Source: Streptomyces sp. CA-278952
GTDB lineage: Bacteria > Actinomycetota > Actinomycetes > Streptomycetales > Streptomycetaceae
DNA: 64,000 nucleotides
Direction of reading: 5' to 3'
Assembly (NCBI RefSeq): GCF_028747205.1
Contig: NZ_CP112880.1
Coordinates: 744,001-808,000, forward strand
Part shown: piece by piece, positions 1 to 23,636 of the stretch
Layout of the letters: the number at the start of each line of letters is the position of its first letter
How positions within the stretch are numbered: the first letter of the stretch is position 1
Notes under the pieces: generated by a model
Seen by the model: the letters and a program-made list of their open reading frames with translations, nothing else
Told to the model about the DNA's origin: nothing
Database searches by the model: none
Position numbers and translations under genes: made by a program

Positions 1-263
1 ACCCGGTCCGGCGGTTGGGCGGAGTCGACCGGCAGGTACGCGGCTCCCGCGGCGAGCACGGCGACGACGGCCACCACCATGTCCGTACCGCGCGGGATCA
101 CGACGGCGACGATGTCGTCCGGCCCGATCCCGCGGTCCCGCAGCCCGCCGGCCGCCGCGGAGGCGCGGGCGTCGAGCTCGGCGTAGGAGAGCGTGCCGTC
201 GGCGGCGGTAACCGCGATCGCCCCCGGGGCCCGGACGACCTGGCGACGGAAAATTGCCATCAT
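1..263 (-). CDS. NRPS, N-terminal part of an adenylation domain (partial)
   Basis: The minus strand reads as the beginning of a nonribosomal peptide synthetase adenylation domain and runs off the window edge after about 87 residues. The visible part has the usual opening of the family: a short amphipathic stretch (IFRRQVVRAPGAIAV), then the LSYAELDARA helix, and the A2-type segment ending VVAVLAAGAAYLPVD. Such domains activate one amino acid as its adenylate. The ATG at 261-263 follows a weak GGGA; a GTG eight codons upstream is an alternative. The gene starts directly at the A domain, so it may be a loading module or a stand-alone A-PCP protein. It diverges from the regulator at 606, and an MbtH partner is encoded at 12968. 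Substrate cannot be predicted because the specificity pocket lies outside the window. Confidence 0.85.
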   Translation of the reverse strand, partial: MMAIFRRQVVRAPGAIAVTAADGTLSYAELDARASAAAGGLRDRGIGPDDIVAVVIPRGTDMVVAVVAVLAAGAAYLPVDSAQPPDR

Positions 264-605: not shown

Positions 606-1619
606 ATGAGCGGGACATCGCTGGATACGCGACCGAGGGACACGCCACCGACGTTCGTGCCGGTCGACCAGGTGACCGAAACATCTCTCGTGCGGGTCGC
701 CGGCTCCCGTCCCGACCACGTCAGCGCGCTCGCGCAGTGCCCGGACGGCCTCCCGCCGATCCTCGTGCACCGGCCGACCATGCAGGTGATCGACGGTGTG
801 CACCGCCTGCGTGCGGCCAAGCTGCGCGGGGACGCCACCATCGGTGTGCGGTTCGTCGACGGCTCGGAGGAGGACGCGTTCGTGCTGGCCGTGAGCGCCA
901 ACGTGACCCAGGGGTTGCCGCTGACGCTGGCCGACCGCACCGCCGCCGCCTCCCGGATCCTGTCGTCGCATCCGCACCTGTCGGACCGTCTGATCGCGTC
1001 GACGGCCGGATTGTCCACCAAGACGGTGGCCGCGATCCGGCAGCGTACAACCGGGGAAATGACTCAGTTGCACACCCGTCTCGGCCGCGACGGGAAAGTG
1101 CGGCCACTCGACGCCTCCCACGGGCGCACAATGGCGAGTCAGGCGATTTTGAACGATCCCGATCTTTCGTTGCGGGCGATCGCCCGCATCGCCGGAATAT
1201 CGGTCGGCACCGCCCGGGATGTCCGGGAAAGAATGCGCCGCGGCGAGGATCCTATTCCGCCGCGGTACCGCCTTTCCGCCGGACACCGCACGGAAAGCGA
1301 AGCGGCGGAAAACAACGCGCCGGGCAACCGCACCGGTGGTGCCAACGGCACCCCCGGTTCCCCCAGCACGCCTCGCGCCGAACGGGACCGGTTCCTGGTC
1401 TCGCTGCGCACCGATCCGTCGTTGCGGTTCTCCGAGATCGGCCGCGCGCTCCTGCGGCTGCTCGACGCCAACACCCTCGACGCCGCGCAGTGGGACCGCC
1501 TCGCCGCCGCCGTCCCCCAGCGCTGGTCACCGGTGGTCGCCGACCTCGCCACGGACTGCGCGGCCGACTGGTGGGCACTCGCCTGCCGGGTCCGCGACCG
1601 GCTCCGCGTCAGCGCGTGA
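606..1619 (+). CDS. StrR/NovG-type ParB-domain pathway regulator
   Basis: This 337-residue protein has a ParB/Srx-like N-terminal domain (about residues 20-100, with the family motif IDGVHRLRAAKLRG). Two helix-turn-helix-like segments follow (about 105-143 and 177-213, the latter with SLRAIARIAGISVGTA). This layout is that of cluster-situated activators such as StrR, NovG and the glycopeptide Bbr/Dbv4 group, which bind inverted repeats upstream of biosynthetic operons. GGAGGAG lies six bases before the ATG. It is divergent from the NRPS and its 3' end overlaps the convergent transporter gene by 93 bases. Inferred role: activator of this natural-product cluster. Family assignment is firm; targets are unknown. 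Confidence 0.85.
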   Translation: MSGTSLDTRPRDTPPTFVPVDQVTETSLVRVAGSRPDHVSALAQCPDGLPPILVHRPTMQVIDGVHRLRAAKLRGDATIGVRFVDGSEEDAFVLAVSANVTQGLPLTLADRTAAASRILSSHPHLSDRLIASTAGLSTKTVAAIRQRTTGEMTQLHTRLGRDGKVRPLDASHGRTMASQAILNDPDLSLRAIARIAGISVGTARDVRERMRRGEDPIPPRYRLSAGHRTESEAAENNAPGNRTGGANGTPGSPSTPRAERDRFLVSLRTDPSLRFSEIGRALLRLLDANTLDAAQWDRLAAAVPQRWSPVVADLATDCAADWWALACRVRDRLRVSA

Positions 1620-2882
1620 GTCCGGCGCGCACGCCACGGCGATCGCCGCCGCCAGCTGGACCACCGCGAACAGCGCGACCACCGGAAGCAGCGACGACGA
1701 GTCGCCGGTGATCGCGACCGCGACCAGCGGCCAGAAGCTGGAGACCGTGACGCCCACCTGGTAGGTCACGGCGATCGCGGAGAACCGCACCATGGTCGGG
1801 AACAGGTCGACCAGGAACGCCGCCAGTCCCCCGTAGATCGCGCCGTGCGCGATGGTCAGCGCGGGGACGAGCACCAGGACGGCCCGTGTCGGATCGCCCG
1901 AGGACAGCCAGGCGCCCGCCGGGATCATCGCCGCCACCGAGACCGCGTAGCCGAAGATCATGACCGGCCGGCGGCCGAACCGATCGGACAGCGCGCCGAA
2001 CACCGGCAGTGTCACGCACTCGCCCAGGGCCGCGATCATCAGCCCGGTCAGCACGGTCGACCGCACCCCCGGCCCGGCCTTCGCCGCGTGCGCCACCAGG
2101 AAGACGGTGAACATCGCGATCACCGAACCGGTGCCGAGCGAGGCGAGAATGCCGATCACCACGCGGCGCGGCCACCGCCGCAGCACCATGATCACCGGCA
2201 CCCGGGCCGGGCGGTTCTCCGCCCGGCCACGCACGAACTCCGGTGTCTCCTCGATCCCCAGCCGGACCCAGATGCCGATGCCGACGAGGACGATCGACCC
2301 CAGGAACGGCAGCCGCCATCCCCAGGTCAGGAAGTCGTCCTCGGGCAGTTTGGAGATCAGCACGAAGGTCAGGTTGCTGCCGAACAACGCCAGCGCGAAG
2401 CCCATCGCGGGCCAGCTGCTGAAGAAGCCGCGGCGCTTGGGCGGCCCGTGTTCGGTGCTGAGCAGCACCGCGCTTCCCCATTCGCCGCCGATGCCGATGC
2501 CCTGCGCGACGCGCAACGTCACCAACAGGACCGGCGCGAGGACGCCCGCCGTCTCATAGGTGGGCAGCAGGCCGACGCCGAACGTGGCGATGCCCATGAT
2601 GAGCAACGTCCACACCATCATCGACTTGCGGCCCACCCGGTCGCCGAAGTGGCCGAACAGCAAGCCGCCCAGCGGGCGTGCGACGAACCCGGCCGCGTAG
2701 GTGGCGAACGACGCGAGCACACCGCCGGCAGCCGACGATCCGGGGAAGAACAGCGGGCCGAACACCAGCGCGGACGCCGTCGCGTAGAGATAGAAGTCGT
2801 ACCACTCGATGGCGGTGCCGATCGTGCTCGCGATCAGCACCCGGCGGACCGAGCGGGGCGCCGGGGTCACCGCTGGTGTCAT
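1527..2882 (-). CDS. MFS transporter, metabolite:H+ symporter (MHS) type
   Basis: A 451-residue polytopic membrane protein with about twelve hydrophobic segments. The opening TIGTAIEWYDFYLYATAS and the loop FGHFGDRVGRKSMMVW are hallmarks of the MHS subfamily (ShiA, ProP and KgtP relatives). These usually import small polar or aromatic acids with protons. The ATG at 2880-2882 overlaps the stop of the upstream hydrolase gene (ATGA), so the two are translationally coupled. In this cluster it could bring in a precursor, or less typically export product; the family alone does not decide. The 3' end overlaps the convergent regulator gene. Confidence 0.85.
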   Translation of the reverse strand: MTPAVTPAPRSVRRVLIASTIGTAIEWYDFYLYATASALVFGPLFFPGSSAAGGVLASFATYAAGFVARPLGGLLFGHFGDRVGRKSMMVWTLLIMGIATFGVGLLPTYETAGVLAPVLLVTLRVAQGIGIGGEWGSAVLLSTEHGPPKRRGFFSSWPAMGFALALFGSNLTFVLISKLPEDDFLTWGWRLPFLGSIVLVGIGIWVRLGIEETPEFVRGRAENRPARVPVIMVLRRWPRRVVIGILASLGTGSVIAMFTVFLVAHAAKAGPGVRSTVLTGLMIAALGECVTLPVFGALSDRFGRRPVMIFGYAVSVAAMIPAGAWLSSGDPTRAVLVLVPALTIAHGAIYGGLAAFLVDLFPTMVRFSAIAVTYQVGVTVSSFWPLVAVAITGDSSSLLPVVALFAVVQLAAAIAVACAPDSRADAEPVADPAGECPPVGRAVRGEVGDHR

Positions 2883-4206: not shown

Positions 4207-5871
4207 ATGGCGCGCAAGTTGTCCCTGGCCCTGGAGCTGTATGCCGACGCGAACGGCACCGTCGACCAGCGCTACATCGATCAGATGCGCGACCAGGACG
4301 CCGAACCGGTGCCGGTCGATCACACGTTGCCGAGGTTCACCCTCGTCGTCGGGCCCTCGCCGTTCACCATGCCGCGCGGCTGGGAGTTCTTCCTCACCTC
4401 CCCCTACGAGGGTGCGACGTACATCTCGACCGTGCTGCACAACGCCGGATATCCGGTGCGCATCGTCGACGTCCGCTACACCCCGAACCCCCTTCAGGCG
4501 GCGTACGAGCAGATCAACGAAGGCACCGACGTGCTCGGCATGTGCACGTTCGAGGACAACTTCCCTTTCTGCCGGGCGCTGATGGCGATGGTCCGCGCAT
4601 CGCACCCGGACATACCGATCATCTGCGGCGGCTCGCTGGTCACTTCCGCGCCGGCGGTCTTCATGTCGGACACCGCCTGCGACATCGCGGTGATCAGCGA
4701 GGGTGAGATCACCATCCTGGAGCTGATGGAGAGTTACGCCCGCGGCTCGTGGAAGCAGGACCTCCCGACCGTCAAGGGCATCTGCTACCGGGACGAGAAG
4801 GGAAACGCCCGCCGCACGCCGCCGCGTGGCCAGATGATGGATCTCGACGCGCTGCCCAGGATGCGGCTCGACCTGTGGCCCCAGTCGCGGTCGCCGCTCG
4901 GCATGCAGCCGCAGGTGATCTCGTCCTACAGCCGCGGCTGCAAGATGGACTGCTCCTTCTGCTACCGCACCACCCCGCAGGTGCGGGCGAAGTCGCCGGA
5001 GAAGATGGACCGCGACCTCGACTGGCTGAAGACCCGGTACGGCGTGGAGTTCTGCTTCTTCGTCGACCTCACGTTCAGCTCGCACCGCGGTCAGACCATC
5101 GAGATGTGCGACGTGATCTCCCAGCACGATCTGCGGTGGACCTGTCTGACCCGGTGCGCCGACATGGACGTACCGCGCATCGACGCGATGCGGGAGGCGG
5201 GAGCGGACATCATCCTGTACGGCGTCGAGTCGCTGGGCCGCGAGGTGTTGCGCGAGGCCCGCAAGGGCAGCAGCGAGAACCTGACCGTCCGCGCGATGCG
5301 CACCACGTTCGAGGGCGGCGTGCGGTTCGGCTCGCTGCTCATCGTCGGTCTGCCGAACGAGACCGAGGAGTCCCTGTCGGACATGGTGCAGTTCGCCGAG
5401 CAGTACAACCACGTGACCCGGGTGAAGTATCTGTCGGCCATGCCCGGCACGACGGTGTACCAGGACGCGGTGCGGAACAAGGTGATCCGCACCGAGATCG
5501 ACCACCTGAACTGGCTGTCGGTCGAACAGGCGCTGCACGAGGACGAGTTCCTGAACGTGAGCGGGCTGCCCGAGCAGGTCTGCCGGGACGCGTACAAGCG
5601 TGTGTACGACGCCTATCAGCCCGGCCCGGTGATGGACTTCCAGCACTGGCCCGAGCACTTCCAGTACTTCCACCCGCAGCCGGCCGACGGCACCGAGCGG
5701 TCGACGTCGTACGCCGGGTCCGGCTGGCGCGCGGAGTGGAGTTCCGCCGCCGCGCCCCTGGTCCCCGGTTCCGAGCGGTACACCTTGGACAAGGTGGCCG
5801 ACCCGGAGGTGGCCGCGGTCGGGAGCACGCTGATGGACTGCGGCGCGAAGCAGCTCGCGGTGGGGGGCTGA
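4207..5871 (+). CDS. B12-binding-domain radical SAM enzyme 1
   Basis: A 554-residue enzyme. The N-terminal third resembles a cobalamin-binding Rossmann domain (VLHNAGYPVRIVDVRY, then ICGGSLVTSAP). The core has the radical SAM motif RGCKMDCSFCY with Cys245, Cys249 and Cys252 for the 4Fe-4S cluster. LIVGLPNETEESLSDM is a typical late-barrel motif of this class. Members catalyse methylation at unactivated carbon or phosphorus, or other radical rearrangements. The B12-binding DxHxxG signature is not obvious, so actual cobalamin use is uncertain. It is the first gene of an overlapping operon running to 12190; AGGGAG precedes the ATG. The substrate is presumably an amino acid or the NRPS peptide. 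Confidence 0.85.
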   Translation: MARKLSLALELYADANGTVDQRYIDQMRDQDAEPVPVDHTLPRFTLVVGPSPFTMPRGWEFFLTSPYEGATYISTVLHNAGYPVRIVDVRYTPNPLQAAYEQINEGTDVLGMCTFEDNFPFCRALMAMVRASHPDIPIICGGSLVTSAPAVFMSDTACDIAVISEGEITILELMESYARGSWKQDLPTVKGICYRDEKGNARRTPPRGQMMDLDALPRMRLDLWPQSRSPLGMQPQVISSYSRGCKMDCSFCYRTTPQVRAKSPEKMDRDLDWLKTRYGVEFCFFVDLTFSSHRGQTIEMCDVISQHDLRWTCLTRCADMDVPRIDAMREAGADIILYGVESLGREVLREARKGSSENLTVRAMRTTFEGGVRFGSLLIVGLPNETEESLSDMVQFAEQYNHVTRVKYLSAMPGTTVYQDAVRNKVIRTEIDHLNWLSVEQALHEDEFLNVSGLPEQVCRDAYKRVYDAYQPGPVMDFQHWPEHFQYFHPQPADGTERSTSYAGSGWRAEWSSAAAPLVPGSERYTLDKVADPEVAAVGSTLMDCGAKQLAVGG

Positions 5872-5874: not shown

Positions 5875-6894
5875 GTGTCCACCCAGGACGGCCCGATCCT
5901 GATCATCGGGACCGAACGCTCCGGGTCGAACCTGCTGCGGCTGGTGCTCGACGCGCACGCGCGGATCGCGGTCCCGCACCCGCCGCACTTCATGCGGTAC
6001 CTGTCCGGCATCCCGTACGACGGTGATGTCGACGCGATGGTGGGCGACGCGATGCGGTTGCTGCGCGACCACATCCACCCGTGGCCGCACGTGATCGACC
6101 GGGCCGCGGTGACCGAGGCGGCCGGCCCGTCGCTGTTCGGGGTGGTGTCGGCCATCTACGACCAGTACCGCGTCGCGGAGGGCGCGGCCCGGTGGGGGTG
6201 CAAGAGCACGTTCATGGTCGAGCACGTCGACGAGGTGCTCGCCGGGCTCCCGGACGCGCGGTTCCTCTGGCTGGTGCGTGATCCCCGCGATGTGGCCGCG
6301 TCGGCGAAGCGGGCGGTGTTCGGCCACTGCCACCCGTACCGGATGGCCCTGCGGTGGACGGCCGAACAGGAGCTCGCCCGCGCGGCCCTGGAGCGATGGG
6401 GGCCGGGGGTGGTGCACCTGGTGCGGTACGAGGACCTGGTGTCCGCGCCCGACCGGGAGATCCGGGCGATCTGCGACTTCATCGGTGAGGCGTTCGAGCC
6501 CGCGATGCTGGCGCACCACCTCGGTGGCAACGCCCGGGTGACCGCGTCCCTGTCGGCGTCCTGGCGCACGGCGGGCGACCCGATCACCACGGCCCGGATC
6601 GGCGCCCACCGGCGGGGGCTGTCCGACCGGGAGCGGCGGCAGGTGGAGAGCGTGACCGCGCGGGTGATGGAGACGCTGCGCTACCCGTTCGACCGGGCCT
6701 CGCTGGACGAACCGGCTCCCGGTCCGCTCGGCGTCGCGCTGCGCGGGTTCGCGGTCCGGATGGCCGTGGAGGCGCGATCGCTGCGCACCGACCGCAACCA
6801 CTTCCGGCGCTGGCGGCGCGACGCCACCGTCCGCCGGCTGCGCCACCGCGCGAAGCCGGGCCGCGCCCTTGTTCCGGCAGGAGAGAGCAGATGA
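5875..6894 (+). CDS. Sulfotransferase 1
   Basis: A 339-residue protein that opens with ILIIGTERSGSNLLRLVLD, the 5'-phosphosulfate-binding loop of PAPS-dependent sulfotransferases (Sulfotransfer_3 type). FLWLVRDPRDVAAS is the following strand-helix with the conserved Arg-Asp-Pro, and VRYEDLVSAPD matches the later conserved segment. It would transfer sulfate from PAPS to a hydroxyl or amine of the pathway intermediate. The GTG start lies three bases after the stop of the radical SAM gene, with its G-rich ribosome site inside that gene; the 3' end overlaps the methyltransferase by ATGA. No PAPS-synthesis genes are visible in the window. Confidence 0.85.
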   Translation: MSTQDGPILIIGTERSGSNLLRLVLDAHARIAVPHPPHFMRYLSGIPYDGDVDAMVGDAMRLLRDHIHPWPHVIDRAAVTEAAGPSLFGVVSAIYDQYRVAEGAARWGCKSTFMVEHVDEVLAGLPDARFLWLVRDPRDVAASAKRAVFGHCHPYRMALRWTAEQELARAALERWGPGVVHLVRYEDLVSAPDREIRAICDFIGEAFEPAMLAHHLGGNARVTASLSASWRTAGDPITTARIGAHRRGLSDRERRQVESVTARVMETLRYPFDRASLDEPAPGPLGVALRGFAVRMAVEARSLRTDRNHFRRWRRDATVRRLRHRAKPGRALVPAGESR

Positions 6895-7634
6895 ACGGAA
6901 CGGGAAGCGTCCGCACGCACTTCGCCGACCGGGCGAGCACCTACGACCGGTCCAGTTCGTGGTGCACCGACGACGCGCTCGGCGAGCTGATGCTGTCCAC
7001 GGCCGCGCCCCGGCCGGGCGACGCGGTCCTGGACGTGGCGTGCGGCACCGGACTGGTGTCGAGGCTGTTCGCCGGGCGGGTGCGGCGGCTGGCCGGCGTG
7101 GACATCACGCCGGAGATGGCCGAGCAGGCGCGCGACGTGCTCGACGAGCTGGTGATCGCCCCGGCGGAGGAGCTGCCGTTCGATGACGCCACGTTCGACG
7201 TCGTGGTGTGCCGTCAGGGGATCCAGTTCATGACGCTGCCGGACGCGGTGCGGGAGATGGTGCGGGTGACCCGGCCGGGCGGGCGGGTCGTCCTGGCCCA
7301 CCTCTGCGCCTACGGGGACGACGACCGCGACGAGTACGCCGAGATCCTGCGGCTGCGCAACCCGGCCCGGCGGCACTTCTTCCGGCCCGGCGATGTCGAG
7401 GCGCTGCTCGCCGGCGCGGGGTGCGACCCGGTGCGGTCGCAGCGGTACGTGTCGGTGGAGGACGTGGACGTGTGGTCGGACAACGGTGCGATCGGCGAAG
7501 ACGCGCGGGAGGCCATCCGGGACCGCTACAGGAGGGCGTCACCCGCGTTCCGCGCACGGCACGCGGTGGCGGAGGCGGACGGGCGGATCACCGACCGGAT
7601 GCTGTTCGTCGTCGCCTCGGGAACGAGGGTCTGA
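6891..7634 (+). CDS. Class I SAM-dependent methyltransferase
   Basis: A 247-residue UbiE/Methyltransf_11-type enzyme. Motif I is VLDVACGTGLVSRLF, the acidic loop is LAGVDITPEMAEQA, and motif IV/V reads FDVVVCRQGIQFM. It resembles the methyltransferase half of the fusion protein at 8085 in motif wording (LTPEMAALA there) and order, so the two are probably paralogues within one pathway. The start overlaps the sulfotransferase stop (ATGA), and the next gene starts one base after its stop. The methylated atom cannot be inferred. Confidence 0.85.
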   Translation: MNGTGSVRTHFADRASTYDRSSSWCTDDALGELMLSTAAPRPGDAVLDVACGTGLVSRLFAGRVRRLAGVDITPEMAEQARDVLDELVIAPAEELPFDDATFDVVVCRQGIQFMTLPDAVREMVRVTRPGGRVVLAHLCAYGDDDRDEYAEILRLRNPARRHFFRPGDVEALLAGAGCDPVRSQRYVSVEDVDVWSDNGAIGEDAREAIRDRYRRASPAFRARHAVAEADGRITDRMLFVVASGTRV

Positions 7635-7635: not shown

Positions 7636-8088
7636 ATGGAACCGGACCAGTCCCCCGCCGACGGTGTGCGCGCAGCGTTCCTCGCCGAGGCGGCCACCGC
7701 GGCGCGGTACACCTACTGCGCACAGGTCGCCGAGATCGAGGGTCACCCCGAGGCGGCCAGGGTGTTCGGCGAGCTCGCCGAGAGCGTGACCTGCGCCGCC
7801 CACGGCCACCTGGATCTGCTGCGCGGCCTGCTGGGCGGCGACGATCCGGGCCCCGGCAGCGCGCTCGGCGACACCCGCCGCAACCTCGCCGCGGCGATCA
7901 GCGGCGACCTCGGGGAGGCCACCGAACGCTACCCCGGCCTGGCGGCGCGGGCCCACATGGACGGCGTGGCCGATCTGGCGAGCTGGCTGGAGACGCTGTG
8001 CACGTTGAAGAAGACGCACGTGGACCGGCTGGAGCAGGCCCTCACCGGGCTGGACGAGCCGCGGTCCGCCGGGAACGGAGCGCCATGA
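7636..8088 (+). CDS. Rubrerythrin/ferritin-like helical protein with altered ligands
   Basis: A 150-residue all-helical protein. EAATAARYTYCAQVAEIEGHPEAA matches, in pieces, the first helix pair of rubrerythrin-family diiron proteins (Glu..Arg-Tyr..Ala.., then Gly-x-Pro-Glu). The second ligand helix reads LAESVTCAAHGHLDLL. The usual ExxH ligand pair (as in AEAEEEHA) is here replaced by V-T-C-A, so a classical diiron site is doubtful. It could be a repurposed ferritin-like enzyme or a structural partner. Both ends are coupled to neighbours: one base after the methyltransferase stop, and ATGA overlap with the fusion gene. Confidence 0.65.
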   Translation: MEPDQSPADGVRAAFLAEAATAARYTYCAQVAEIEGHPEAARVFGELAESVTCAAHGHLDLLRGLLGGDDPGPGSALGDTRRNLAAAISGDLGEATERYPGLAARAHMDGVADLASWLETLCTLKKTHVDRLEQALTGLDEPRSAGNGAP

Positions 8089-10016
8089 CCACCGATTACG
8101 ACGCCGAGGCGATCACCGTCCACTCCGGTCTTGAGGCGGTGCGCCGCAACCCGTCGATGTACGTCGGGTCGACCGGCTCGGACGGCGCCCATCACCTGGT
8201 GCTCGAACTGGTCGACAACGCCGTGGACGAGGCCGCCGCCGGGCACTGCGGCGCGATCTCGGTGGAGCTGCACGGCGACGGCTCCTGCTCGGTCACCGAC
8301 GACGGCCGGGGCATCCCCACCGCCCCGCACCCGGAGGCCGGGATCCCGGCGTGCGAGCTCGTGCTCACCACGCTGCACTCGGGGGGCAAGTTCGACCACT
8401 CCTCCTACGCGACCTCGGCCGGGCTGCACGGTGTCGGCCTGGCCTGCGTGAACGCGCTGTCCCAGTGGTTGCGGCTGGACGTGTGGCGCGACGGCGCGCA
8501 CCACAGCGAGTCGTTCGCCCGGGGCGCGGTCGAGACCCCGCTCAAACGGGTCGGCGACAGCGGCCGCCGCGGCACCCGCGTGTGGTTCCGCCCGGACCCG
8601 GAGATCTTCTCCTCCTGCGCACTCGACGCGGAGCTGCTGCACGCCCGGCTGCTCGACATCGCGTATCTGCACCCGGGCCTGCGGGTCGGTCTCATCGACC
8701 ACCGCACCGGGCGGGACGAGTCGCTGTACGAGATGACCGGGGTGCGGGGCCTGCTCGCGTACCGCGCCCGCGACGCCGAGAAGGTGCATGCCGAGCCGAC
8801 CACCATCTCCTGGGCGGGGGACGGGTGCGTGATCGACGCCGCCGTCCAGTGGACCGAGGGGTACGCGGAGCAGATCTTCGCTTACGTCAACACCATCCGC
8901 ACCGACCTGGGCGGGTCGCATGTGGACGCCCTGCGCGGCGCGCTGGCAGGGGTGGTGGCCGAACATCTCGGCCCGGCCGCGGACAGGATGACCGCGGTCG
9001 ACATCCTGGAGGGGCTGACCGCGGTGATCGCGATCCGGATCCCGGACGCGCGGTTCGACGGCCAGACCAAACGCACCCTGCGCAACGACGAGGCGGGCGC
9101 CCGCGTGTTCGACGTCGTCACCGAGCAGGCGCGGCGGGCGCTGGCGGCCGACCCGGAGCTGGCCCGCCGCATCGCCGAACGGGCCGTCGACGCGAGCCGG
9201 GCCCGGCTCGCCGCGCGGCTGGCCGGGCGGACGGCCCGCTCCCGGACCCGGGCCGCCGAGGTCGACTACGCGGTCTACCAGCGGCAGTTCGGGATCCGCT
9301 CGAAGGACTGGCACGACTCGTGCGCCTGGCTCACCGACGAGGACCTGCTCGGCAAGCACGCGGAGCTGTGCGCGGTGCCGCCGGACGCGCGGATGCTGGA
9401 CGTGTGCTGCGGCAGCGGTGTCGTCGGCGGCGCGTTCCGCGGCCGGGTCGGCGAGATGGTCGGGCTGGACCTCACCCCGGAGATGGCCGCGCTCGCCGCC
9501 ACCCGGCTGGACGTGGTGCACCAGGGCACCGTCTACGACCTGCCGTTCCCCGACGCCAGTTTCGACCTCGTGGTCACCCGGGAGGTGCTGCATCTGCTGC
9601 CTCGTCCGGAGCGGCCGGTGTCGGAGATCTTCCGTGTGCTGCGGCCGGGCGGGCAGTTCATCGTCGGGCAGATCGTGCCGTACGCGGACGTGGACGCATT
9701 CTGGATGTTCCGCGTCTTCAAGAAGAAGCAGCCACTGCTGTGCCAGATGTTCCGCGAGGAGGACTTCCGGGCGTTGCTCACCGGCGGCGGGTTCACCGAC
9801 GTACGGATGGAGGAGCACTTCCTGTGGGAGTCGATCGACCGGTGGATCGACACGCACGAGACGACACCGGCGAGCCGGCAGGAGATCTACCGCCTCTATG
9901 ACGACGCGCCGCGCGAGGTGCGCGACGTACACCCCTTCGAGGTACTGCCGGACGGCTCGGTGCTCGACCGGTGGCGGTGGTGCGTGTACTCGGTGCGGAA
10001 ACCCGACCATGCCTAG
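8085..10016 (+). CDS. GyrB-type GHKL ATPase/transducer fused to a SAM methyltransferase
   Basis: A 643-residue fusion. Residues 1 to about 385 correspond to the 43-kDa ATPase fragment of DNA gyrase B. Visible motifs are the base Glu41 and Asn45 (LELVDNAVDEA), the ATP-binding DDGRGIP (72-78), the lid AGLHGVGLACVNALS, and the transducer lysine in GQTKRTLRN (Lys329). The TOPRIM half (EGDSA, PLRGK) is missing. After a charged linker, a class I methyltransferase starts at about residue 410 with motif I LDVCCGSG (438-445) and LDLTPEMAALAA; it resembles the stand-alone enzyme at 6891. All key ATPase residues are kept, so it should bind and perhaps hydrolyse ATP. The role is unknown: a gyrase-inhibitor decoy or an ATP-gated biosynthetic enzyme are possibilities. 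It overlaps both neighbours. Confidence 0.9.
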   Translation: MTTDYDAEAITVHSGLEAVRRNPSMYVGSTGSDGAHHLVLELVDNAVDEAAAGHCGAISVELHGDGSCSVTDDGRGIPTAPHPEAGIPACELVLTTLHSGGKFDHSSYATSAGLHGVGLACVNALSQWLRLDVWRDGAHHSESFARGAVETPLKRVGDSGRRGTRVWFRPDPEIFSSCALDAELLHARLLDIAYLHPGLRVGLIDHRTGRDESLYEMTGVRGLLAYRARDAEKVHAEPTTISWAGDGCVIDAAVQWTEGYAEQIFAYVNTIRTDLGGSHVDALRGALAGVVAEHLGPAADRMTAVDILEGLTAVIAIRIPDARFDGQTKRTLRNDEAGARVFDVVTEQARRALAADPELARRIAERAVDASRARLAARLAGRTARSRTRAAEVDYAVYQRQFGIRSKDWHDSCAWLTDEDLLGKHAELCAVPPDARMLDVCCGSGVVGGAFRGRVGEMVGLDLTPEMAALAATRLDVVHQGTVYDLPFPDASFDLVVTREVLHLLPRPERPVSEIFRVLRPGGQFIVGQIVPYADVDAFWMFRVFKKKQPLLCQMFREEDFRALLTGGGFTDVRMEEHFLWESIDRWIDTHETTPASRQEIYRLYDDAPREVRDVHPFEVLPDGSVLDRWRWCVYSVRKPDHA

Positions 10017-11262
10017 CCGCGCCGTGGATCACCCGGCCGCCGAGGTCGTGCGCGGGCTGGAGGTGCTACGGCCGCTGCGCGGCACGCCGGTGGAGCACTT
10101 CTGCGCGAAGGTGCGCGATCTCGTCGTCGTCGCGTCGAGCTCGCGGGGCGGGTCGAGCATGCTCGCCGAGCTGCTGCGGACCTCGCGGCACCTTCTGCAC
10201 CTGCGCGGTGAGCTGAATCCGCTGCTGCGGCTGGCCGGCCTCGACCACCCGCGCAGCGGCACCGGATCCGACGTGCTGGAGGCGGCGCACTGGCACGGGC
10301 TTCCGCGGCAATCCCGGGCGTTGTTCGAGGCGGAACTGGCACTGGACGCGGGCTCTCCCGGCACCGGCGTGGAGAACCTGGCGGTGGACGGGGCGTGGCG
10401 GCTGGTCGTGCAGTGGCCGGGGCGGGGCCTCGATCCCGTCGACCTGGTGCGGACCGCCGAGGCGGTACTGGACCGTGATCTCCCCCGGTTCGCACGGGCG
10501 TTGATCGGCAGGGCCGGTGTGAACCCGTGGTACTACGACCTTCCCGGCCGGTCACCGGGACCACGACCGGCCGGGCCGCCCGGTGACGTGCTGCTCGAAG
10601 AGCCGCCCTTCGTCCTCCCCCGTCCGTGGCGGCCGGCGGGCGAAGACGATCTCGCCACGAAGCCACTGGTGATCAAGACGCCGGGCAACGCCTACCGGCT
10701 CGGGTTCCTGCGGGCCGTCTTCCCCAACGCGCGCCTGCGGGTGCTGCACCTGACCAGGAACCCGGCCGCGTCGGTCAACGGCCTGGTCGACGGTTGGCTG
10801 CACCACGGGTTCCACGCGTACCGGCTGGACGAACCACTGCGGATCGCCGGGTACGCCGACGTGCGGCCGGCAGACCGGCACTGGTGGAAGTTCGACCTGC
10901 CCCCCGGCTGGTCCGCGTACACCGCCGCCGCCCTGCCCCGGGTCTGCGCCCACCAGTGGTGGTCGAGTCACCGTGCGGTACTCGCCCACGGGGCGGACCA
11001 CACGGTGCGCTTCGAGGACCTGATCAGCGGTCCGCACGGCCGCGCGGACGCCGTCGAGCGGATCGCCGACTGGCTGGGGGTGCCGTTCGACGGGCCGCTG
11101 AAGCGGGCCGCCACCGACGGCATCGCCGCCACCGTGTCCACCGCCGCACCACGCCCCGGCAGGTGGCTGGCGCGGGAAGAGGAAGTCCGATCGGCGCTGA
11201 GCGCCGACGTGCTCGCGATGGCGGAGAGGCTCGGTTATGCCCGTGACGACCACTGGATCTGA
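10009..11262 (+). CDS. Sulfotransferase 2
   Basis: A 417-residue protein. LVVVASSSRGGSSMLAELL is a PAPS-binding loop of the Sulfotransfer family. Later come FPNARLRVLHLTRNPAASVNG (strand-turn with Arg) and HTVRFEDLISGPHG, matching the conserved C-terminal segments of sulfotransferase 1 in order. It is longer than that enzyme because of an insert at about residues 110-200. The ATG at 10009 lies inside the end of the fusion gene, and the 3' end overlaps the next gene by 26 bases, so it is part of the same coupled operon. Two sulfotransferases imply two sulfation sites or different acceptors. Confidence 0.8.
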   Translation: MPSRAVDHPAAEVVRGLEVLRPLRGTPVEHFCAKVRDLVVVASSSRGGSSMLAELLRTSRHLLHLRGELNPLLRLAGLDHPRSGTGSDVLEAAHWHGLPRQSRALFEAELALDAGSPGTGVENLAVDGAWRLVVQWPGRGLDPVDLVRTAEAVLDRDLPRFARALIGRAGVNPWYYDLPGRSPGPRPAGPPGDVLLEEPPFVLPRPWRPAGEDDLATKPLVIKTPGNAYRLGFLRAVFPNARLRVLHLTRNPAASVNGLVDGWLHHGFHAYRLDEPLRIAGYADVRPADRHWWKFDLPPGWSAYTAAALPRVCAHQWWSSHRAVLAHGADHTVRFEDLISGPHGRADAVERIADWLGVPFDGPLKRAATDGIAATVSTAAPRPGRWLAREEEVRSALSADVLAMAERLGYARDDHWI

Positions 11263-12190
11263 GCCGAGCACCCACGGCGGCCCGGGGTGGGTTCCCCGCG
11301 TGGCGTCGCACGTGGACGAAGTCGCGGCCGGGAGCGTGTGGGCGCCGTGCGGGTACCGGTCGGAGACGGCCGCGCTGCGGTCGGTGCTGCTGGTCCGCCC
11401 GCCGGACAGCATCGCCGCGGTGCGCCGGCCCGGGGCCTCGCTCATGCTCGGGCCGGTGGATCCGGCGGCGATGCGGGCGCAGTGCGACGCGCTGGCGGAC
11501 CGCCTGCGCGGCCACGGGGTCGAGGTACACCTGGCCTCCCCCGCGGCGACGCCGAACGTGGTGTTCGCGCGGGACCTGTTCTGGATGACCCCGGCCGGGG
11601 CGGTGGTGGCGCGGATGGCGTCGGCGCAGCGGGCCGGCGAGGAACGGCATGCCGCGCTCGCGCTGGCCGAGGCAGGGTTCCCGATTCTGCGCACGGTGTC
11701 CGGCACCGCCGTGTTCGAGGGCGCCGACGCGCTGTGGATCGACCCGTCGACGGTGATCGTCGGCACCGGGTTCCGCACGAACGACGCCGGCGCGGCCGAG
11801 GTCGCCTCGGCGGTCGCGGGACTGGGGGCGCGGGTGGTGACGGTGCGCTTGGCGCCGGGCGTGCAGCATCTGCTGGGGACGGTGGTGTTCCTCGGCCCGT
11901 CCACGGCCGTCATCCATCGGGCGGCGAGCCCACCGGAGTTGACGATACTGCTCCGCGAGTACGGCTATCGGGTGATCGCGCTGGAGCCGGACGAGGAGCT
12001 GCTGGTGCGGCGCGGGATGAACCTGCTGGTGCTCGCGCCGGGGCGGGTGCTGATGCCCGCGGGCTGCCCGGGGATCCGGCGGACGCTGGAGCGGGCGGGC
12101 GTGGCCGTCGACGAGATCGACGTCGGGGAGTATCTGCGGGCGGCCGGCGGGATCGGCTGCGTGACCGGGGTGGTGCGCCGTGAGCACTGA
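11237..12190 (+). CDS. Guanidine-modifying enzyme (DDAH/arginine deiminase/amidinotransferase-like)
   Basis: A 317-residue protein of the pentein fold. NVVFARDLFWMT gives the substrate Asp region, FEGADALWIDP matches the Glu/Asp guanidinium-binding strand, GVQHLLGTVVFL has the catalytic His (211), and GGIGCVTGVV near the end has the catalytic Cys (308). Family members hydrolyse or transfer the guanidino group of arginine derivatives, giving citrulline or amidinated products. In an NRPS cluster it likely makes or modifies an arginine-derived unit. GGAGAGG precedes the ATG within the overlapping sulfotransferase gene. It is the last gene of the coupled operon. Confidence 0.8.
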   Translation: MPVTTTGSEPSTHGGPGWVPRVASHVDEVAAGSVWAPCGYRSETAALRSVLLVRPPDSIAAVRRPGASLMLGPVDPAAMRAQCDALADRLRGHGVEVHLASPAATPNVVFARDLFWMTPAGAVVARMASAQRAGEERHAALALAEAGFPILRTVSGTAVFEGADALWIDPSTVIVGTGFRTNDAGAAEVASAVAGLGARVVTVRLAPGVQHLLGTVVFLGPSTAVIHRAASPPELTILLREYGYRVIALEPDEELLVRRGMNLLVLAPGRVLMPAGCPGIRRTLERAGVAVDEIDVGEYLRAAGGIGCVTGVVRREH

Positions 12191-12220: not shown

Positions 12221-12631
12221 TCACTGGGCCGGGTACACCGTGGGGTCGTCCAGCGGCACCTTCAGCCAGGAGATCATCTGCCGGAGCTGGTGGTACGCCG
12301 CCAGCCGCTGCTCGTCGGAGTCGGCCTCCTCCGCTGCCGCGATCGGCTCCCACAGGCGCGGCACCATCACCGGCCCGACTTCGAGCAGGCCGCCGCTGCC
12401 GCCGGTGGCCCACTTCGCCAGCACGTACCGGACGATCGCGCCGACCGGGATGTCCAGGTTCCGGGACATGCCGCGCACGGTCTCCAGCGGATCGAGGAGC
12501 CCGTAATCGACCACCTCGGCCTTGAAGTTGGCGTGCGGGTCCTCCGGTGGCCAGCACCGTTCCCACTGGCGCAGCCGGACCGTCGGCGTACCGGTCGCGT
12601 CGTAGGCCAGGTCATCCATGTCGCCATCCAT
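12221..12631 (-). CDS. DUF6027-family protein
   Basis: A 136-residue acidic protein read on the opposite strand to its neighbours. The sequence (YGLLDPLETVRGMSRNLD, then VRYVLAKWATGGSGGLLE and QLRQMISWLKVPLDDP) matches, by recollection, a family common in Streptomyces genomes and known as DUF6027. No enzymatic motif is visible. It is convergent with the guanidine-modifying gene and divergent from the small peptide gene. Whether it belongs to the cluster is unclear; homologues also occur outside such clusters. Confidence 0.75.
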   Translation of the reverse strand: MDGDMDDLAYDATGTPTVRLRQWERCWPPEDPHANFKAEVVDYGLLDPLETVRGMSRNLDIPVGAIVRYVLAKWATGGSGGLLEVGPVMVPRLWEPIAAAEEADSDEQRLAAYHQLRQMISWLKVPLDDPTVYPAQ

Positions 12632-12948: not shown

Positions 12949-12967
12949 GCGGCGACCTGGAGGCGGC

Positions 12968-13195
12968 ATGGCTGAGACGACCAACCCGTTCGACGACGAC
13001 AACGCACCGTTCTGGGTGCTGCGCAACGACGAGGACCAGCACTCGCTGTGGCCGGAGTTCGCTCCGGTGCCCGCCGGGTGGCACGTGGTACACGGCCCGG
13101 ACGGCCGGGCGGCGTGCCTGGCCTACGTCGAGGAGCACTGGACCGACCTGCGTCCGGCCTCCCTGCGTCGCGCCATGGACGACGCGACCGGGTGA
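12968..13195 (+). CDS. MbtH-like NRPS accessory protein
   Basis: A 75-residue protein with the complete MbtH pattern: [13 protein letters not shown] at the start, then [19 protein letters not shown] with the conserved Trp residues, and [15 protein letters not shown] at the end. MbtH proteins bind and activate NRPS adenylation domains, so this is a direct functional link to the NRPS at the left edge. The start follows GGAGG. It has its own promoter and precedes the second radical SAM gene by about 107 bases. Confidence 0.95.
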
Positions 13196-13301: not shown

Positions 13302-15248
13302 GTGAGTCAGTCCACACTTCCGTTTCCACGGCCACGGCCACGGCCACGGCCACGACCACGTTCACGGGAGAAGCGCGGACGCGCGCTGATCGTGCAACAG
13401 GGCGCCTGGGACATGCCCAAGGAGTCGATGCCGCTCGCCGCCGGCTATCTGACAGCCGCAGCACGGGCCGATCCCGTGGTGGGACCCGAGTTCGACGTGG
13501 GGATACAGAACTTCCGCGGTGGACAATCGCTGGGCTCGATGGCGCGCACGATCTTCTCCGGGGTGGTGCCGGACGTGCTGGCGTTCTCGGTCCTCGGCTG
13601 GAACCTCGACCAGTTCGGCGCGCTCGCCGAGACCTACAAGTCGGTGCGCCCGGACGGCTGGGTCGTCTTCGGCGGAACGCACGTCGCCCACCAGGCGGAA
13701 CGCGTCTTCCGACGCTTCCCCGAGGTCGACGTCGTCGCCAACGGCGAGGGCGAGTTCACCTTCCGGGACCTGCTGCTCGCCGTCCTCGAGGAGAAGTCGC
13801 CGCACGATCTCGCGCAGGTGCCGGGGATCTCCTACCGCGACGAGGAAGGGACGATCCACACCACTGCCGAGGCGCCGCGCATCGACGACCTGGACATCAT
13901 TCCGTCGCCCTTTCTGACCGGGGCCATACCGCTGCTCGACCACCAGGGCCGGTTCCCCTACGACGTCGCGCTGATGGAGACCAACCGCGGCTGTCCGTAC
14001 AAGTGCTCGTTCTGTTACTGGGGCGGCGCGGTCGGCCAACGGATGCGCGACTTCTCCCGCGAGCGGCTGCGCGCGGAGCTCGACGTCTTCGGCTACCACC
14101 GGATTCCGACGGTGGTGCTGTGCGACTCCAACTTCGGCATGCGCCGGCCGGACGCGGAGTTCGTCGAGGACCTCGTCAGGACGCGCGAGAAGTACGGGTT
14201 CCCGAAGTCGTTGGAGACGTCGTGGGCGAAGAACAAGTCCAAGACGTTCCGCGACATCATCCGCCGGATGAAGGCCGAGGGGTTCCAGAGCTCGTTCACC
14301 GTGGCGCTGCAGACACTGGACGACACGGCGTTGCGTGACATGGGCAGAAGCAACATGCGGCTCAACGAGTGGAAGGAGCTGGCGGCATGGCTCGCGGCGG
14401 AGGGTCTCGACGCCTACGCGGAACTGATCTGGGGCGCGCCGGGTGAGACGGTCGACTCCTTCCTGACGGGTTACGACCGGTTGTCCCAACACGTGTCCCG
14501 CATCGCCGTCTACCCCCTGTTGCTGCTGCCCAACACCACCTACACGGAGAACCGCGAGGAGCACGGCTTCGTCACCGTGCGCGGCGACAACGACGACTTC
14601 GAGTACGTACTCGCCAACCGCACCGTCACCGTCGCGGAGAACACGACGATGCAGCGGTTCATGTTCTGGGCCCGGATGATGAGCGAGAACATGTACTTCC
14701 GGCACATCTGGGCGCCGCTGCGGGAGCTCGCCGGGCTCACCCAGAGCGCCGTACTGCTGATCCTCTCGGAGTGGTTCCAGGACTCGACCGATCCCGCCGT
14801 CGCCGAGTTGCTCGGCCACGGCCGCGAGTTCACCGACTCCGGCCTGGTCGTCGAGTCGCTGCACAAACTCTACGCCGACCCGCGGTTCGCGCCGGGCTTC
14901 CAGCGGTGGTGGGACGAGGCGATCCTGCCGAAGGTGCCCGAGCGGCACAGGCCGCTGCTCAACGAGATCTTCCGCTACGACAACGCGACCCGCCCGATCT
15001 ACTCCGGCGCTGGTGCCGAGGACGCCGAGCTGCGCAGCATCGACGGCCTGCCGCACTACGTCCGCAGCGGCCTGCGGTTCAACTACCCGATGCCGCACGT
15101 TCTCGACGCCATCCGCGCGAGCCGACCGTTCGACGAGGAACCCTCGCCGGTCGAACTGACGCTCGCCTACCGCGTCGGATTCGACGACTACCTCGACAAC
15201 CACGAACTCGCGACGTACTACGCCGGTCGCTGTCTCGAGATCCGGTAG
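13302..15248 (+). CDS. B12-binding-domain radical SAM enzyme 2
   Basis: A 648-residue enzyme. After an unusual Pro-Arg repeat, residues about 30-190 look like a cobalamin-binding domain (KESMPLAAGYLTAAA, VVFGGTHVAHQAERVF). The radical SAM core begins at NRGCPYKCSFCYWGG with Cys231, Cys235 and Cys238. ELIWGAPGETVDSF is the late-barrel motif, and a long C-terminal domain of about 200 residues follows. This is the large class of B12-dependent radical methylases and related enzymes; no DxHxxG motif was seen. GTG at 13302 is chosen because it follows GGGGGCGAAACA; earlier in-frame GTG codons at 13224 and 13233 are possible. Substrate unknown. Confidence 0.85.
   Translation: MSQSTLPFPRPRPRPRPRPRSREKRGRALIVQQGAWDMPKESMPLAAGYLTAAARADPVVGPEFDVGIQNFRGGQSLGSMARTIFSGVVPDVLAFSVLGWNLDQFGALAETYKSVRPDGWVVFGGTHVAHQAERVFRRFPEVDVVANGEGEFTFRDLLLAVLEEKSPHDLAQVPGISYRDEEGTIHTTAEAPRIDDLDIIPSPFLTGAIPLLDHQGRFPYDVALMETNRGCPYKCSFCYWGGAVGQRMRDFSRERLRAELDVFGYHRIPTVVLCDSNFGMRRPDAEFVEDLVRTREKYGFPKSLETSWAKNKSKTFRDIIRRMKAEGFQSSFTVALQTLDDTALRDMGRSNMRLNEWKELAAWLAAEGLDAYAELIWGAPGETVDSFLTGYDRLSQHVSRIAVYPLLLLPNTTYTENREEHGFVTVRGDNDDFEYVLANRTVTVAENTTMQRFMFWARMMSENMYFRHIWAPLRELAGLTQSAVLLILSEWFQDSTDPAVAELLGHGREFTDSGLVVESLHKLYADPRFAPGFQRWWDEAILPKVPERHRPLLNEIFRYDNATRPIYSGAGAEDAELRSIDGLPHYVRSGLRFNYPMPHVLDAIRASRPFDEEPSPVELTLAYRVGFDDYLDNHELATYYAGRCLEIR
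13326..13360 (+). repeat. Hexanucleotide tandem repeat encoding Pro-Arg
   Basis: About five to six copies of CCACGG, partly degenerate at the right end, encode (Pro-Arg)n near the N-terminus of radical SAM enzyme 2. Such a tract can expand or contract in whole codon pairs without changing frame. Confidence 0.8.
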
Positions 15249-17944: not shown

Positions 17945-18934
17945 TCAGACTGCCGCCGGCGTCTTTTCGGGCTCCGTGACCGCTTCGGCGTCGGTGAGGG
18001 CCGCGAGGTAGCGCTCGGCGTCCAGGGCTGCCGCGCAGCCGGAGCCCGCGGCGGTGATCGCCTGGCGGTAGGTGTGGTCGACCACGTCTCCCGCGCCGAA
18101 CACGCCGGGGATGTTCGTGCGGGTCGAGGGTGCCTCGACCTTCAGGTATCCCTCGTCGTCCAGGTCCAGCTGGCCGGCGAAGAGCTCCGTGCGCGGGTCG
18201 TGGCCGATCGCGACGAACAGGCCGGTGGCGGCTAGGTCGCGCGTCCGGCCGCTGAACGTATCGCGCAGGACGAGGCCGGACACGGCGCCACCCTCCTCCT
18301 TGATCTCCGCGATCTCACTGTCGAAGGCGAAGGAGATCTTGTCGTCGGCGAACGCGCGGCTCTGCATGACCTGGGAGGCCCGCAGCGCGCTCCGGCGGTG
18401 GACGACCGTGACGGAGCGGGCGAACCGGGTGAGGAAGGTGGCCTCCTCCATCGCGGTGTCGCCGCCGCCGACGACCACGATGTCGCGGTCGCGGAAGAAG
18501 AAGCCGTCACAGGTCGCGCAGTAGGAGACCCCGCGTCCCGAGAGTTCGTCCTCGCGCTCCAGGTTCAGCTTGCGGTGCTGCGATCCGGTGGTCACGATCA
18601 CGGCGCGGGCCCGGTGGACTGCTCCGCTGCTGTCCGTGACCGTCTTGATGTCACCCGTGAGGTCGACGGCGACGATGTCGTCCGGGACCAGCTCGGCGCC
18701 GAACCGCGTCGCCTGGGCCCGCATGTTGTCCATGAGGTCAGGACCGACGACGCCCTCGGGGAAGCCGGGGAAGTTCTCGACCTCCGTGGTGTTCATGAGC
18801 GCGCCGCCCGCGGTCACCGAGCCTTCGAAAACCAGCGGCTCGAGGTCGGCACGCGCCGTGTAGAGCGCGGCGGTGTATCCGGCGGGGCCGGAGCCGATGA
18901 CGATGACGTTCCGGACGTCCGTGTCGGCACTCAC
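17945..18934 (-). CDS. trxB: Thioredoxin reductase linked to arsenic resistance (ArsT-like)
   Basis: A 329-residue flavoprotein. [20 protein letters not shown] is the FAD loop, [13 protein letters not shown] has the redox-active CxxC pair, [16 protein letters not shown] is the NADPH loop, and [16 protein letters not shown] is the C-terminal FAD motif. It reduces thioredoxin-type partners with NADPH. Its start overlaps the stop of arsC (ATGA), so it probably recycles the thiol donor for arsenate reduction. Confidence 0.92.
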
Positions 18935-19344
18935 TTGGACGCCTCCGGCGCGATCTCCTCGATCAGGCCCTCGACCATGACCTTGATCTCGTCGCGGATC
19001 GGGCGAACCGCCGCCACGCCCTGGCCGGCCGGGTCTTCGAGCTTCCAGTCGAGGTAACGCTTGCCGGGGAAGACGGGGCAGGTGTCGCCGCAGCCCATGG
19101 TGATGCAGACGTCCGACTCCTTGACCGCGTCGACCGTGAGGATCTTCGGGGTCTCGGCGGAGATGTCGATGCCGACCTCGGCCATCGCCTCGACAGCGGC
19201 CGGGTTCACGGTGTCGCCCGGGTTGGACCCGGCGGAGCGGACCTCGACGCGGTCCCCGGCGAGGTGGGTCAGCCAGGCGGCGGCCATCTGGGAGCGGCCG
19301 GCGTTGTGGACACAGACGAACAGAACAGAGGGCTTCTGGGACAT
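18931..19344 (-). CDS. arsC: Arsenate reductase, low-molecular-weight phosphatase type
   Basis: A 137-residue protein. [18 protein letters not shown] contains the Cx5R phosphatase loop (CVHNAGR); later [21 protein letters not shown] holds the resolving cysteines and the aspartate region of thioredoxin- or mycothiol-linked arsenate reductases. It reduces arsenate to arsenite for export by ACR3. It is transcribed away from arsR across a 92-base gap with a candidate ArsR operator. Confidence 0.93.
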
Positions 19345-19386
19345 CAGGAGGTCTCTCTCGTCACACGGTCGAATCAGGCACCCATG

Positions 19387-19422
19387 ACATCAGCACCCGG
19401 TGGCGTCAGTAGCCACTGATGT
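19387..19422. promoter_or_regulatory. Candidate ArsR operator between arsC and arsR
   Basis: ACATCAG (19387-19393) and CTGATGT (19416-19422) are perfect inverted arms in the divergent arsC/arsR promoter region. The spacing is wider than in many ArsR/SmtB operators, so exact boundaries are uncertain. An autoregulated, arsenite-inducible divergent promoter is the expected arrangement. Confidence 0.5.
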
Positions 19423-19436
19423 GAGAGTATCAGCCC

Positions 19437-19745
19437 ATGATGACGTCAGTCGACACTGAACTGATCCGCGTGCTGGGCGATCCGCTCCGGCTCCGGATCG
19501 TGACGCTGCTCGCCCGCGAGACGCTGTGCACCAGCCACCTGGTGGAGGAGACCGGCGCGAAGCAGACCAACCTCTCCAACCACCTGAGGGTCCTGCGCGA
19601 GGCCGGGGTCGTGGAGACCGAACCGTGCGGGCGCTTCACCTACTACAAGCTCCGCCCGGACGTCATCGCCCGGCTCGCCGGCCAGTTCGCCGACCTGGCC
19701 GACTCCGCCCGTACCGCCGCCGAGAACAAGAGGGCCTGTCCGTGA
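19437..19745 (+). CDS. arsR: ArsR-family arsenite-responsive repressor 1
   Basis: A 102-residue winged-helix protein. LGDPLRLRIVTLLARETLCTS, then VEETGAKQTNLSNHLRVLREAGVVETE, is the ArsR DNA-binding fold, and FTYYKLRPD closes the wing. A cysteine in the ETLCTS helix and another in EPCGRF may bind As(III); the classical ELCVCDL motif is absent. It overlaps the permease gene by four bases (GTGA). Two adjacent ATG codons (19437, 19440) could serve as start. Confidence 0.9.
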   Translation: MMTSVDTELIRVLGDPLRLRIVTLLARETLCTSHLVEETGAKQTNLSNHLRVLREAGVVETEPCGRFTYYKLRPDVIARLAGQFADLADSARTAAENKRACP

Positions 19746-20851: not shown

Positions 20852-20987
20852 TGTACCGCCTCGGCTCCCGCCCGCATGCGGCCCTCCGCGCCCCGGCTCG
20901 CCTCACCGTCCGCCCGCTGGCGGAAGCGGCACCGCGCAGAGGGGAAGCGGAAGCCGGGGCGCCTTGCGCCGCCAGGGAGGTGACCTG

Positions 20988-21980: not shown

Positions 21981-22056
21981 TCGGCGTGGGCCGCCCCGCC
22001 CGGGACGCCGTCCGCGAGATCGCCACCCTGCTGCGCTGACGCCTCCCCGGCCGGGC

Positions 22057-22581
22057 TCAGGGTGCATCGAGGGCTGCGCTGTCCACCCAGCGCGCCAAGA
22101 CGCTGAAGGCCTCAAGGTGTTCCAGGGCCTCGTGCTCCGGCAGCTCCGGCCGCCCGCCCTCATCGCTGTTGGGGTTCCGGATGCCCGCGAAACAGCCCTC
22201 GGGGAAGGACATCGCGCCCCGGTGCACACTGCGGAAGGTGTCGCTGTTGTCGTCCGCCATCAGGCGAAGACGAGGCTGGCCGGGCTTGGCCGCGTCCTTG
22301 GAGAACACGCTCTGGAACAGGGCGGTTTCGCTCACGTCGCGGCGGCCGACCTTGTTCTGGGTCTCGACGTCGACCTTCCGGGCTGCGGCGGTGACCGCCT
22401 CGCGGAAGTGCCCGCTGCGCCACAGGGACCGGGCCCCGTCCCACACCCACCGGTGCATGGCCGCCGCGCTGAGCTGGGGCGCGTCGTCCCCGAGCCGCTC
22501 ACGAACCTCCGCGTCCCGCAGCAGGACGGCGTCGGCGCGCTGGGCGGCTTCGCGGTGCCGGCACCAGCGGTCATGGGACAT
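22057..22581 (-). CDS. TIGR02391-family (Ymh-like) protein, possibly truncated
   Basis: A protein of about 175 residues. The C-terminal part (WDGARSLWRSGHFREAVTAA, then KVGRRDVSETALFQSVFSKD, then GAMSFPEGCFAGIRNPNSDE) follows the pattern of the TIGR02391/Ymh domain, an all-helical unit often at the C-terminus of longer proteins. The N-terminal region is shorter than in usual members, so the gene may have lost its 5' part. ATG at 22579-22581 or the TTG before it could start translation. The function of the family is unknown; it sits inside the arsenic locus without an obvious link. Confidence 0.65.
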   Translation of the reverse strand: MSHDRWCRHREAAQRADAVLLRDAEVRERLGDDAPQLSAAAMHRWVWDGARSLWRSGHFREAVTAAARKVDVETQNKVGRRDVSETALFQSVFSKDAAKPGQPRLRLMADDNSDTFRSVHRGAMSFPEGCFAGIRNPNSDEGGRPELPEHEALEHLEAFSVLARWVDSAALDAP

Positions 22582-22663
22582 CAATGCTCATCAGAGCATC
22601 ATCCATGCGGCCACTGACACCGCACAGGTGCTTTCCCAGCAAGGGCGACGACCGCTGAGAGGG

Positions 22664-23049: not shown

Positions 23050-23149
23050 GGGTGAAAGGCTAACAACCCGCGCGCCTACGGATGGCCCGAAGGCGGGCGG
23101 AGCAGGGCCGCCTCGCCCCGTCCCGCCCGCATCCCGGCGCACCGATCAC

Positions 23150-23613: not shown

Positions 23614-23636
23614 CGCTCACTCACACCCACTTCAGA

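Follow-up and report, generated by a model that had tools for sequence, protein, structure and literature searches.

A gyrase B-methyltransferase fusion of the known NucP/AcmP family in a probable sulfamyl assembly cassette of Streptomyces sp. CA-278952

Background

Nucleocidin and ascamycin are 5'-O-sulfamyl adenosines (PMC10946740, PMC9113183). A knockout study of the Streptomyces calvus nucleocidin cluster reports that nucP is required for sulfamylation, that the sulfamylation sub-cluster comprises nine genes and that nucG is essential (PMC10946740). For the ascamycin cluster, the published gene table lists acmP, of 658 amino acids (aa) and annotated as 'DNA topoisomerase II', together with acmQ (rubrerythrin), acmO, acmN (amidinotransferase), acmL (methyltransferase), acmK (sulfotransferase) and acmJ (PMC4257720). 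According to a 2021 review, the enzymes of ascamycin biosynthesis had at that time not been characterised biochemically in any detail (PMC9113183); the later alanylation step (AcmF) has since been studied (PMC12945691). The gene analysed here, a relative of nucP and acmP, lies in a stretch of 64,000 nucleotides of Streptomyces sp. CA-278952 (contig NZ_CP112880.1, positions 744,001 to 808,000; the whole stretch is called the window) and encodes a GyrB-type ATPase fused to an S-adenosylmethionine (SAM) methyltransferase.

The window protein is a member of the known and widespread NucP/AcmP family, and what is new is a family member in a new gene setting, the fusion itself being already described. 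An earlier sequence-only reading of the window knew of no described fusion of this kind, which was mistaken in view of NucP and AcmP (PMC10946740, PMC4257720). Apart from the nucP/acmP papers, our literature searches found no gyrase/GHKL-methyltransferase fusion described as such.

Domain architecture and conserved residues

The window protein shares 64.8% identity with NucP of S. calvus T3018 over 644 columns, that is, its whole length. The nucleocidin NucP proteins of S. calvus and S. virens resemble it in length class, domain order and operon neighbours; the difference lies in the setting, no nucG orthologue being found in the window genome and the cassette adjoining genes for nonribosomal peptide synthetases (NRPS), an MbtH-like protein and a KedN5-type radical SAM enzyme. 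For AcmP of the ascamycin/dealanylascamycin producer Streptomyces sp. JCM9888 the likeness was judged from published length, annotation and gene content (acmJ, K, L, N, O and Q), not from sequence. With all six of nucJ, K, L, N, O and Q present in the window beside it (Table 1), the gene is best explained, with good confidence, as the nucP/acmP orthologue of a cassette that assembles the sulfamyl group (O-SO2-NH2).

The sequence-only reading had proposed a GyrB ATPase and transducer joined to a SAM methyltransferase in place of TOPRIM, and this was borne out, the gene being a single intact frame of 643 residues in which a Pfam scan found neither TOPRIM nor the GyrA/ParC-binding region. The methyltransferase half reaches 78.7 bits against Methyltransf_11 (cut-off 21.2) and carries the Rossmann SAM-binding motifs of class I, while the NCBIfam gyrB equivalog gives 379 bits, below its cut-off of 882. 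The GyrB fold is retained according to a list of structure matches, which is a weak test of the methyltransferase half, and the GHKL ATPase set is complete (Glu base, Asn Mg ligand, glycine lid and transducer Lys). Compared with the N-terminal 43-kDa fragment of DNA gyrase B or ParE, NucP has a methyltransferase where TOPRIM would be. The truncated stand-alone GyrB of Myxococcus xanthus (PDB 3cwv, a 369-residue chain, 28% identity) has none. The UbiE-like class I methyltransferases PDB 1vl5 and 1xxl, and NucL too, have the SAM-binding motifs and length in common with the methyltransferase half of NucP, which differs from them in being carried on a gyrase-type ATPase.

Alignment of the NucP rows confirmed the ATPase hallmarks previously named (E41, N45 and K329 in QTK). 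E41 and N45 are each found in 57/57 rows, D72 in 58/58 and both Q327 and K329 in 59/59, and Y5 and I10 in 50/53 and 54/57, respectively. E41 is the general base and K329 the gamma-phosphate lysine, and the residues of the dimer arm are kept as well. The 21 GyrB/ParE rows compared (one degenerate row, L003, left out) agree with NucP at these positions, except that I10 is present in 18 of the 21. At columns 73, 218 and 323 one letter accounts for at least 90% of the GyrB/ParE rows and for less than 30% of the NucP rows; one column, C121, has the opposite pattern. In the methyltransferase half the motifs CCGSGVVG, REVLHLLP, KKKQPL, WIDTHET and HPF vary little or not at all across 108 sequences, which are close relatives (at least 53% identity to the window protein) from the top of one match list. 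We infer that both halves probably work as enzymes.

A fusion created by sequencing error and homologues split into two proteins were both rejected; 59 of 62 stretches hold an intact P. At one Elusimicrobia bin (L033:9734-9736) there is an in-frame TAG within the transducer, through error or in a decaying gene.

Breadth and phylogeny of the family

A search with full-length NucP gave 1625 matches at E <= 1e-3 out of 8000 scored, a number likely to include plain gyrases, and the ATPase, transducer and methyltransferase labels were present on 120/120 of the matches listed, in agreement with the domain order that the sequence-only reading had suggested looking for. The methyltransferase half alone retrieved 435 proteins (90% clusters) at E <= 1e-45; the DNA_gyraseB label was on 120/120 of those listed, four shorter ones (377-517 aa) having no HATPase_c label. 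A genome scan with two short patterns led from 185 pattern matches to at least 61 loci, a lower bound given the patterns. In Streptomyces nucP occurs in 5/150 sampled genomes, the window's own included, at E <= 1e-60, and in a viral collection none of four pattern matches was confirmed as a NucP relative.

The 61 loci and the window make up the 62 stretches, 57 of which have phylum labels (the window and four loci being unlabelled). There are ten such labels: Actinomycetota (19), Pseudomonadota (14), Myxococcota (12), Elusimicrobiota (5), Bdellovibrionota (2) and five more with one each, among which single metagenome bins may be misassigned. Three bins titled Klebsiella pneumoniae or Bifidobacterium breve (L047, L048, L062) have their NucP among Myxococcota and proteobacterial rows in the tree; these titles, under which they are kept in the counts, are very likely mislabelled.

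In the tree of the gyrase half, 59 NucP rows (58 loci and the window) stand on one side of a 100/99 branch that is present in all 200 bootstrap trees. The other side holds 22 GyrB/ParE-type rows from 13 genomes, L003 among them, three non-NucP matches having been left out. The tree is unrooted, so that it does not fix the derived side. Six of its end branches are long, namely that of L003 and those of five NucP rows, and the composition of nine rows is unusual. Judged from these sequences, the NucP fusion is one old family. A recent local duplication of the host gyrB was rejected, given that the genome has normal-sized GyrB- and ParE-like genes as well and that NucP is set apart by the 100/99 branch.

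The row L003 (G000:C1:2016653-2017162) lies outside the window in the same genome and is a third, stand-alone, truncated GyrB-like protein. Its catalytic residues are lost (E41 to Q, N45 to W, G116 to R, Q327 to A and K329 to R), and it is likely to be a pseudo-ATPase.

Gene neighbourhood

Many of the 62 stretches are cut by contig ends, and P and L were counted with separate profiles. On this basis intact P is found in 59, Q in 58, J in 46, O in 42, L in 38, N in 37 and K in 36. Inspection of the neighbourhoods showed that, in 56/56 stretches with both scored, the gene immediately preceding P in the same orientation is Q, the Q stop lying 0-81 bases before the first matched P codon. In the window the nucQ stop overlaps the nucP start (ATGA) and the start of nucO overlaps the nucP end. 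NucL is a paralogue of the NucP methyltransferase half (32% identity for S. calvus NucP over 241 residues), and in one protein of 900 aa (P0066) NucP is followed by a domain 66% identical to the window NucL over 241 residues. No clear carrier residue emerged from the NucQ alignment.

Proposed role and mechanism

The gyrase ATP residues are kept, the pairing with NucQ is fixed, NucL is a paralogue that has once been fused to NucP, and the DNA-cleaving half is lost; for these reasons we tentatively suggest an ATP-gated dimeric clamp joined to a methyltransferase, acting with NucL and NucQ in a transient methylation. Two NucP chains would close the gyrase-type clamp on ATP binding and reopen it on hydrolysis, and the methyltransferase, placed at the end of the transducer helix in the position of TOPRIM in gyrase, would thereby be opened and closed on its target. 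NucP would act with its paralogue NucL and with NucQ, the latter as carrier or partner, and the intermediate would be methylated and later demethylated or consumed. DNA would play no part.

If so, a gyrase-type ATP clamp was recruited to small-molecule chemistry, and its catalytic residues, conserved across distant bacteria, offer a handle on sulfamyl assembly. The breadth of the cassette suggests undiscovered sulfamyl products beyond actinomycetes.

Several points weigh against a sulfamyl cassette with NucP as clamp. ATP hydrolysis, methyl transfer and dimer formation by NucP are predictions from sequence. At many loci the fetched stretch shows no more than part of the cassette; L039, L046 and L051, for example, have Q and P alone. 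Genes for sulfate activation occur in only 5/62 stretches, with CysD-like genes in L013, L017, L020, L029 and L036, adenylylsulfate (APS) kinase genes in L020, L029 and L036, and CysN in L029 and L036. The search for a nucG orthologue in the window's whole genome returned only a 33% stretch at E 6e-4, and the NRPS genes near the cassette, which are transcribed in the other direction, may be part of an adjacent cluster. The weakest point is that the known end products, to our knowledge, have no methyl on the sulfamyl unit; methylation must then be transient, or the methyltransferase does something else.

One such alternative, which we find somewhat doubtful, is that the role of the methyltransferase half is to bind SAM or a partner and not to methylate in this pathway, NucL or NucJ being the catalysts and NucP a chaperone-like organiser. 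It would agree with NucL being a full-length paralogue, with an end product that is not known to have a methyl, and with the single chain of P0066; yet the first four motifs listed above for the 108 close relatives are near-invariant, beyond the needs of a scaffold.

It is unlikely that the gyrase-type pocket, in place of an ATP clamp, binds the adenosine acceptor or product as a mimic of AMP. Nucleocidin and ascamycin are built on adenosine and a GyrB-type fold binds adenine nucleotides, but E41, K329 and the dimer-arm residues are kept, which would be superfluous for nucleoside binding alone, and the genes scanned in the window-type cluster include an NRPS but none for a nucleoside.

That the ATPase half is a kinase activating a sulfamate or guanidino intermediate by phosphate transfer is quite improbable. 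Other members of the GHKL superfamily are kinases, but the retained lid and QTK transducer lysine are those of an ATPase that hydrolyses in the manner of gyrase, and neither the Pfam scan nor the alignment found a kinase-type phospho-acceptor domain in NucP.

Finally, the sequence-only reading had considered self-resistance, in which the GyrB-like half would bind and sequester a gyrase inhibitor made by the cluster, a suggestion that could draw on the retained GyrB fold and on Arg 135, equivalent to the aminocoumarin contact Arg136 of E. coli and kept in 56/59 NucP. This is very unlikely, with hardly a chance of being right, because the window gene is a NucP surrounded by orthologues of nucI, J, K, L, Q, O and N, in an operon that is a sulfamylation cassette. 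In S. calvus the orthologue serves biosynthesis, being required for sulfamylation (PMC10946740), the related loci, under ten phylum labels, mostly have parts of the cassette, no aminocoumarin gene turned up in scans of the window cluster genes (none being searched for by name), and a decoy would not need its catalytic residues kept. Nor could NucP, which has no TOPRIM, replace a sensitive GyrB.

The window's cluster and its product

The S. calvus nuc names in Table 1 were assigned by family, length and order and not from record annotation, the region around the T3018 homologue (L066) being compared gene by gene.

Table 1. Annotated genes of the window around nucP; percentages to S. calvus are identities
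Feature	Position	Strand	Remarks
NRPS adenylation-carrier (A-PCP) gene, 5' end	1..263	-	start not fixed, near 263; continues upstream of window, G000:C1:742539-744263
Regulator, ParB-like N-terminus	606..1619	+	48.1% to S. calvus gene adjoining nucJ; Pfam weak; presumably StrR-like
Major facilitator superfamily (MFS) transporter	1527..2870	-	Sugar_tr/MFS_1; 57.3% to gene near S. calvus cluster
nucI orthologue, sulfatase-superfamily hydrolase, 384 aa	2879..4033	-	69.7% to 389-aa S. calvus protein
nucJ orthologue, B12-binding radical SAM enzyme	4207..5871	+	B12-binding and Radical_SAM; 78.5% to S. calvus
nucK orthologue, sulfotransferase	5875..6894	+	Sulfotransfer_3 130 bits; 59.6% to S. calvus
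nucL orthologue, SAM methyltransferase	6891..7634	+	70.4% to S. calvus NucL
nucQ orthologue, small pseudo-rubrerythrin, 150 aa	7636..8088	+	Pfam Rubrerythrin 30.7 bits (cut-off 22.8); 51.2% to S. calvus over 123 residues
nucP/acmP orthologue	8085..10016	+	643 aa; GyrB-type ATPase and transducer, residues 1-385; SAM methyltransferase, residues ~398-640
nucO orthologue, divergent sulfotransferase	10009..11262	+	Sulfotransfer_3 42 bits; 52.4% to S. calvus
nucN orthologue, amidinotransferase/dimethylargininase-like	11237..12190	+	NCBIfam dimethylargininase 83 bits (below cut-off 340); 57.2% to S. calvus
DUF6027 protein	12221..12631	-	relatives at 9/61 loci (8 S. griseus-type and L019)
MbtH-like protein	12956..13195	+	Pfam MbtH 95 bits
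KedN5-family B12 radical SAM C-methyltransferase	13431..15248	+	NF033712 930 bits (cut-off 700); start not fixed, frame open from 12918

Upstream of the window the A-PCP gene is accompanied by genes for a flavin adenine dinucleotide (FAD) monooxygenase (best NCBIfam VioC, below cut-off), a DUF6875 protein, a 2481-aa NRPS with condensation, adenylation and carrier domains (1903 residues scanned), an O-methyltransferase and a P450. The A-PCP gene adjoins all eight S. griseus-type loci, at 87-92% identity over 314-347 residues, and no nucG relative was found in the stretches of these eight sister loci. Sinosporangium siamense (L034), one of the eight, has an S. griseus-type cluster with a NucP methyltransferase half 97% identical; as this organism belongs to a different family, Streptosporangiaceae, a recent transfer of the S. 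griseus-type unit is suggested.

Relatives of the 478-aa S. calvus sulfatase (NucG) at E <= 1e-15 occur in 6/62 stretches (47-100% identity, all actinobacterial, S. calvus itself included), a count that covers the fetched stretches, so that NucG could elsewhere sit outside them. Since nucG is essential in S. calvus and its orthologue was not found in the window genome, what the window cluster makes is not necessarily a sulfamate. The same finding, together with the position of the cassette beside an NRPS, leads us to predict a non-nucleoside sulfamyl product; that it is a sulfamylated, or sulfamate-derived, peptide and not a nucleoside we hold to be an evenly balanced question. Literature searches, including one for sulfamate with nonribosomal peptide, found no NRPS-linked sulfamyl product; the window version points to a product type not met there.

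Taken to its full extent, the proposal would be that the seven proteins NucJKLNOPQ build O-SO2-NH2 on or with NucQ, that the NucP clamp, with NucL, holds NucQ during a methylation that is transient but indispensable, and that the clade of the window uses the system for a nonribosomal peptide, whose products would form a new class of sulfamyl peptides; as a whole we consider this rather unlikely.

Of the two S. calvus sulfatases, that of 478 aa fits acmG (480 aa) in length, and on this ground the window sulfatase is named nucI. Its identification as nucG was rejected, with 25% identity to the 478-aa protein against 69.7% to the 389-aa one. Formylglycine sulfatases carry the motif C-x-P-S-R, and at this site NucI has CPLTPVSHATVFTG; its nucleophile may be threonine, and it is hence perhaps no classical sulfatase.

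At the Elusimicrobia loci L036 and L029, genes for CysN, CysD and APS kinase adjoin the cassette, and L036 also has two TauE-type sulfite exporters. Further downstream in the window, positions 17945-25127 hold arsenic-resistance genes by inspection, which we take to encode a thioredoxin reductase-like protein, an ArsC-like phosphatase, an Acr3-like exporter, flavin monooxygenases and an ArsR-like regulator.
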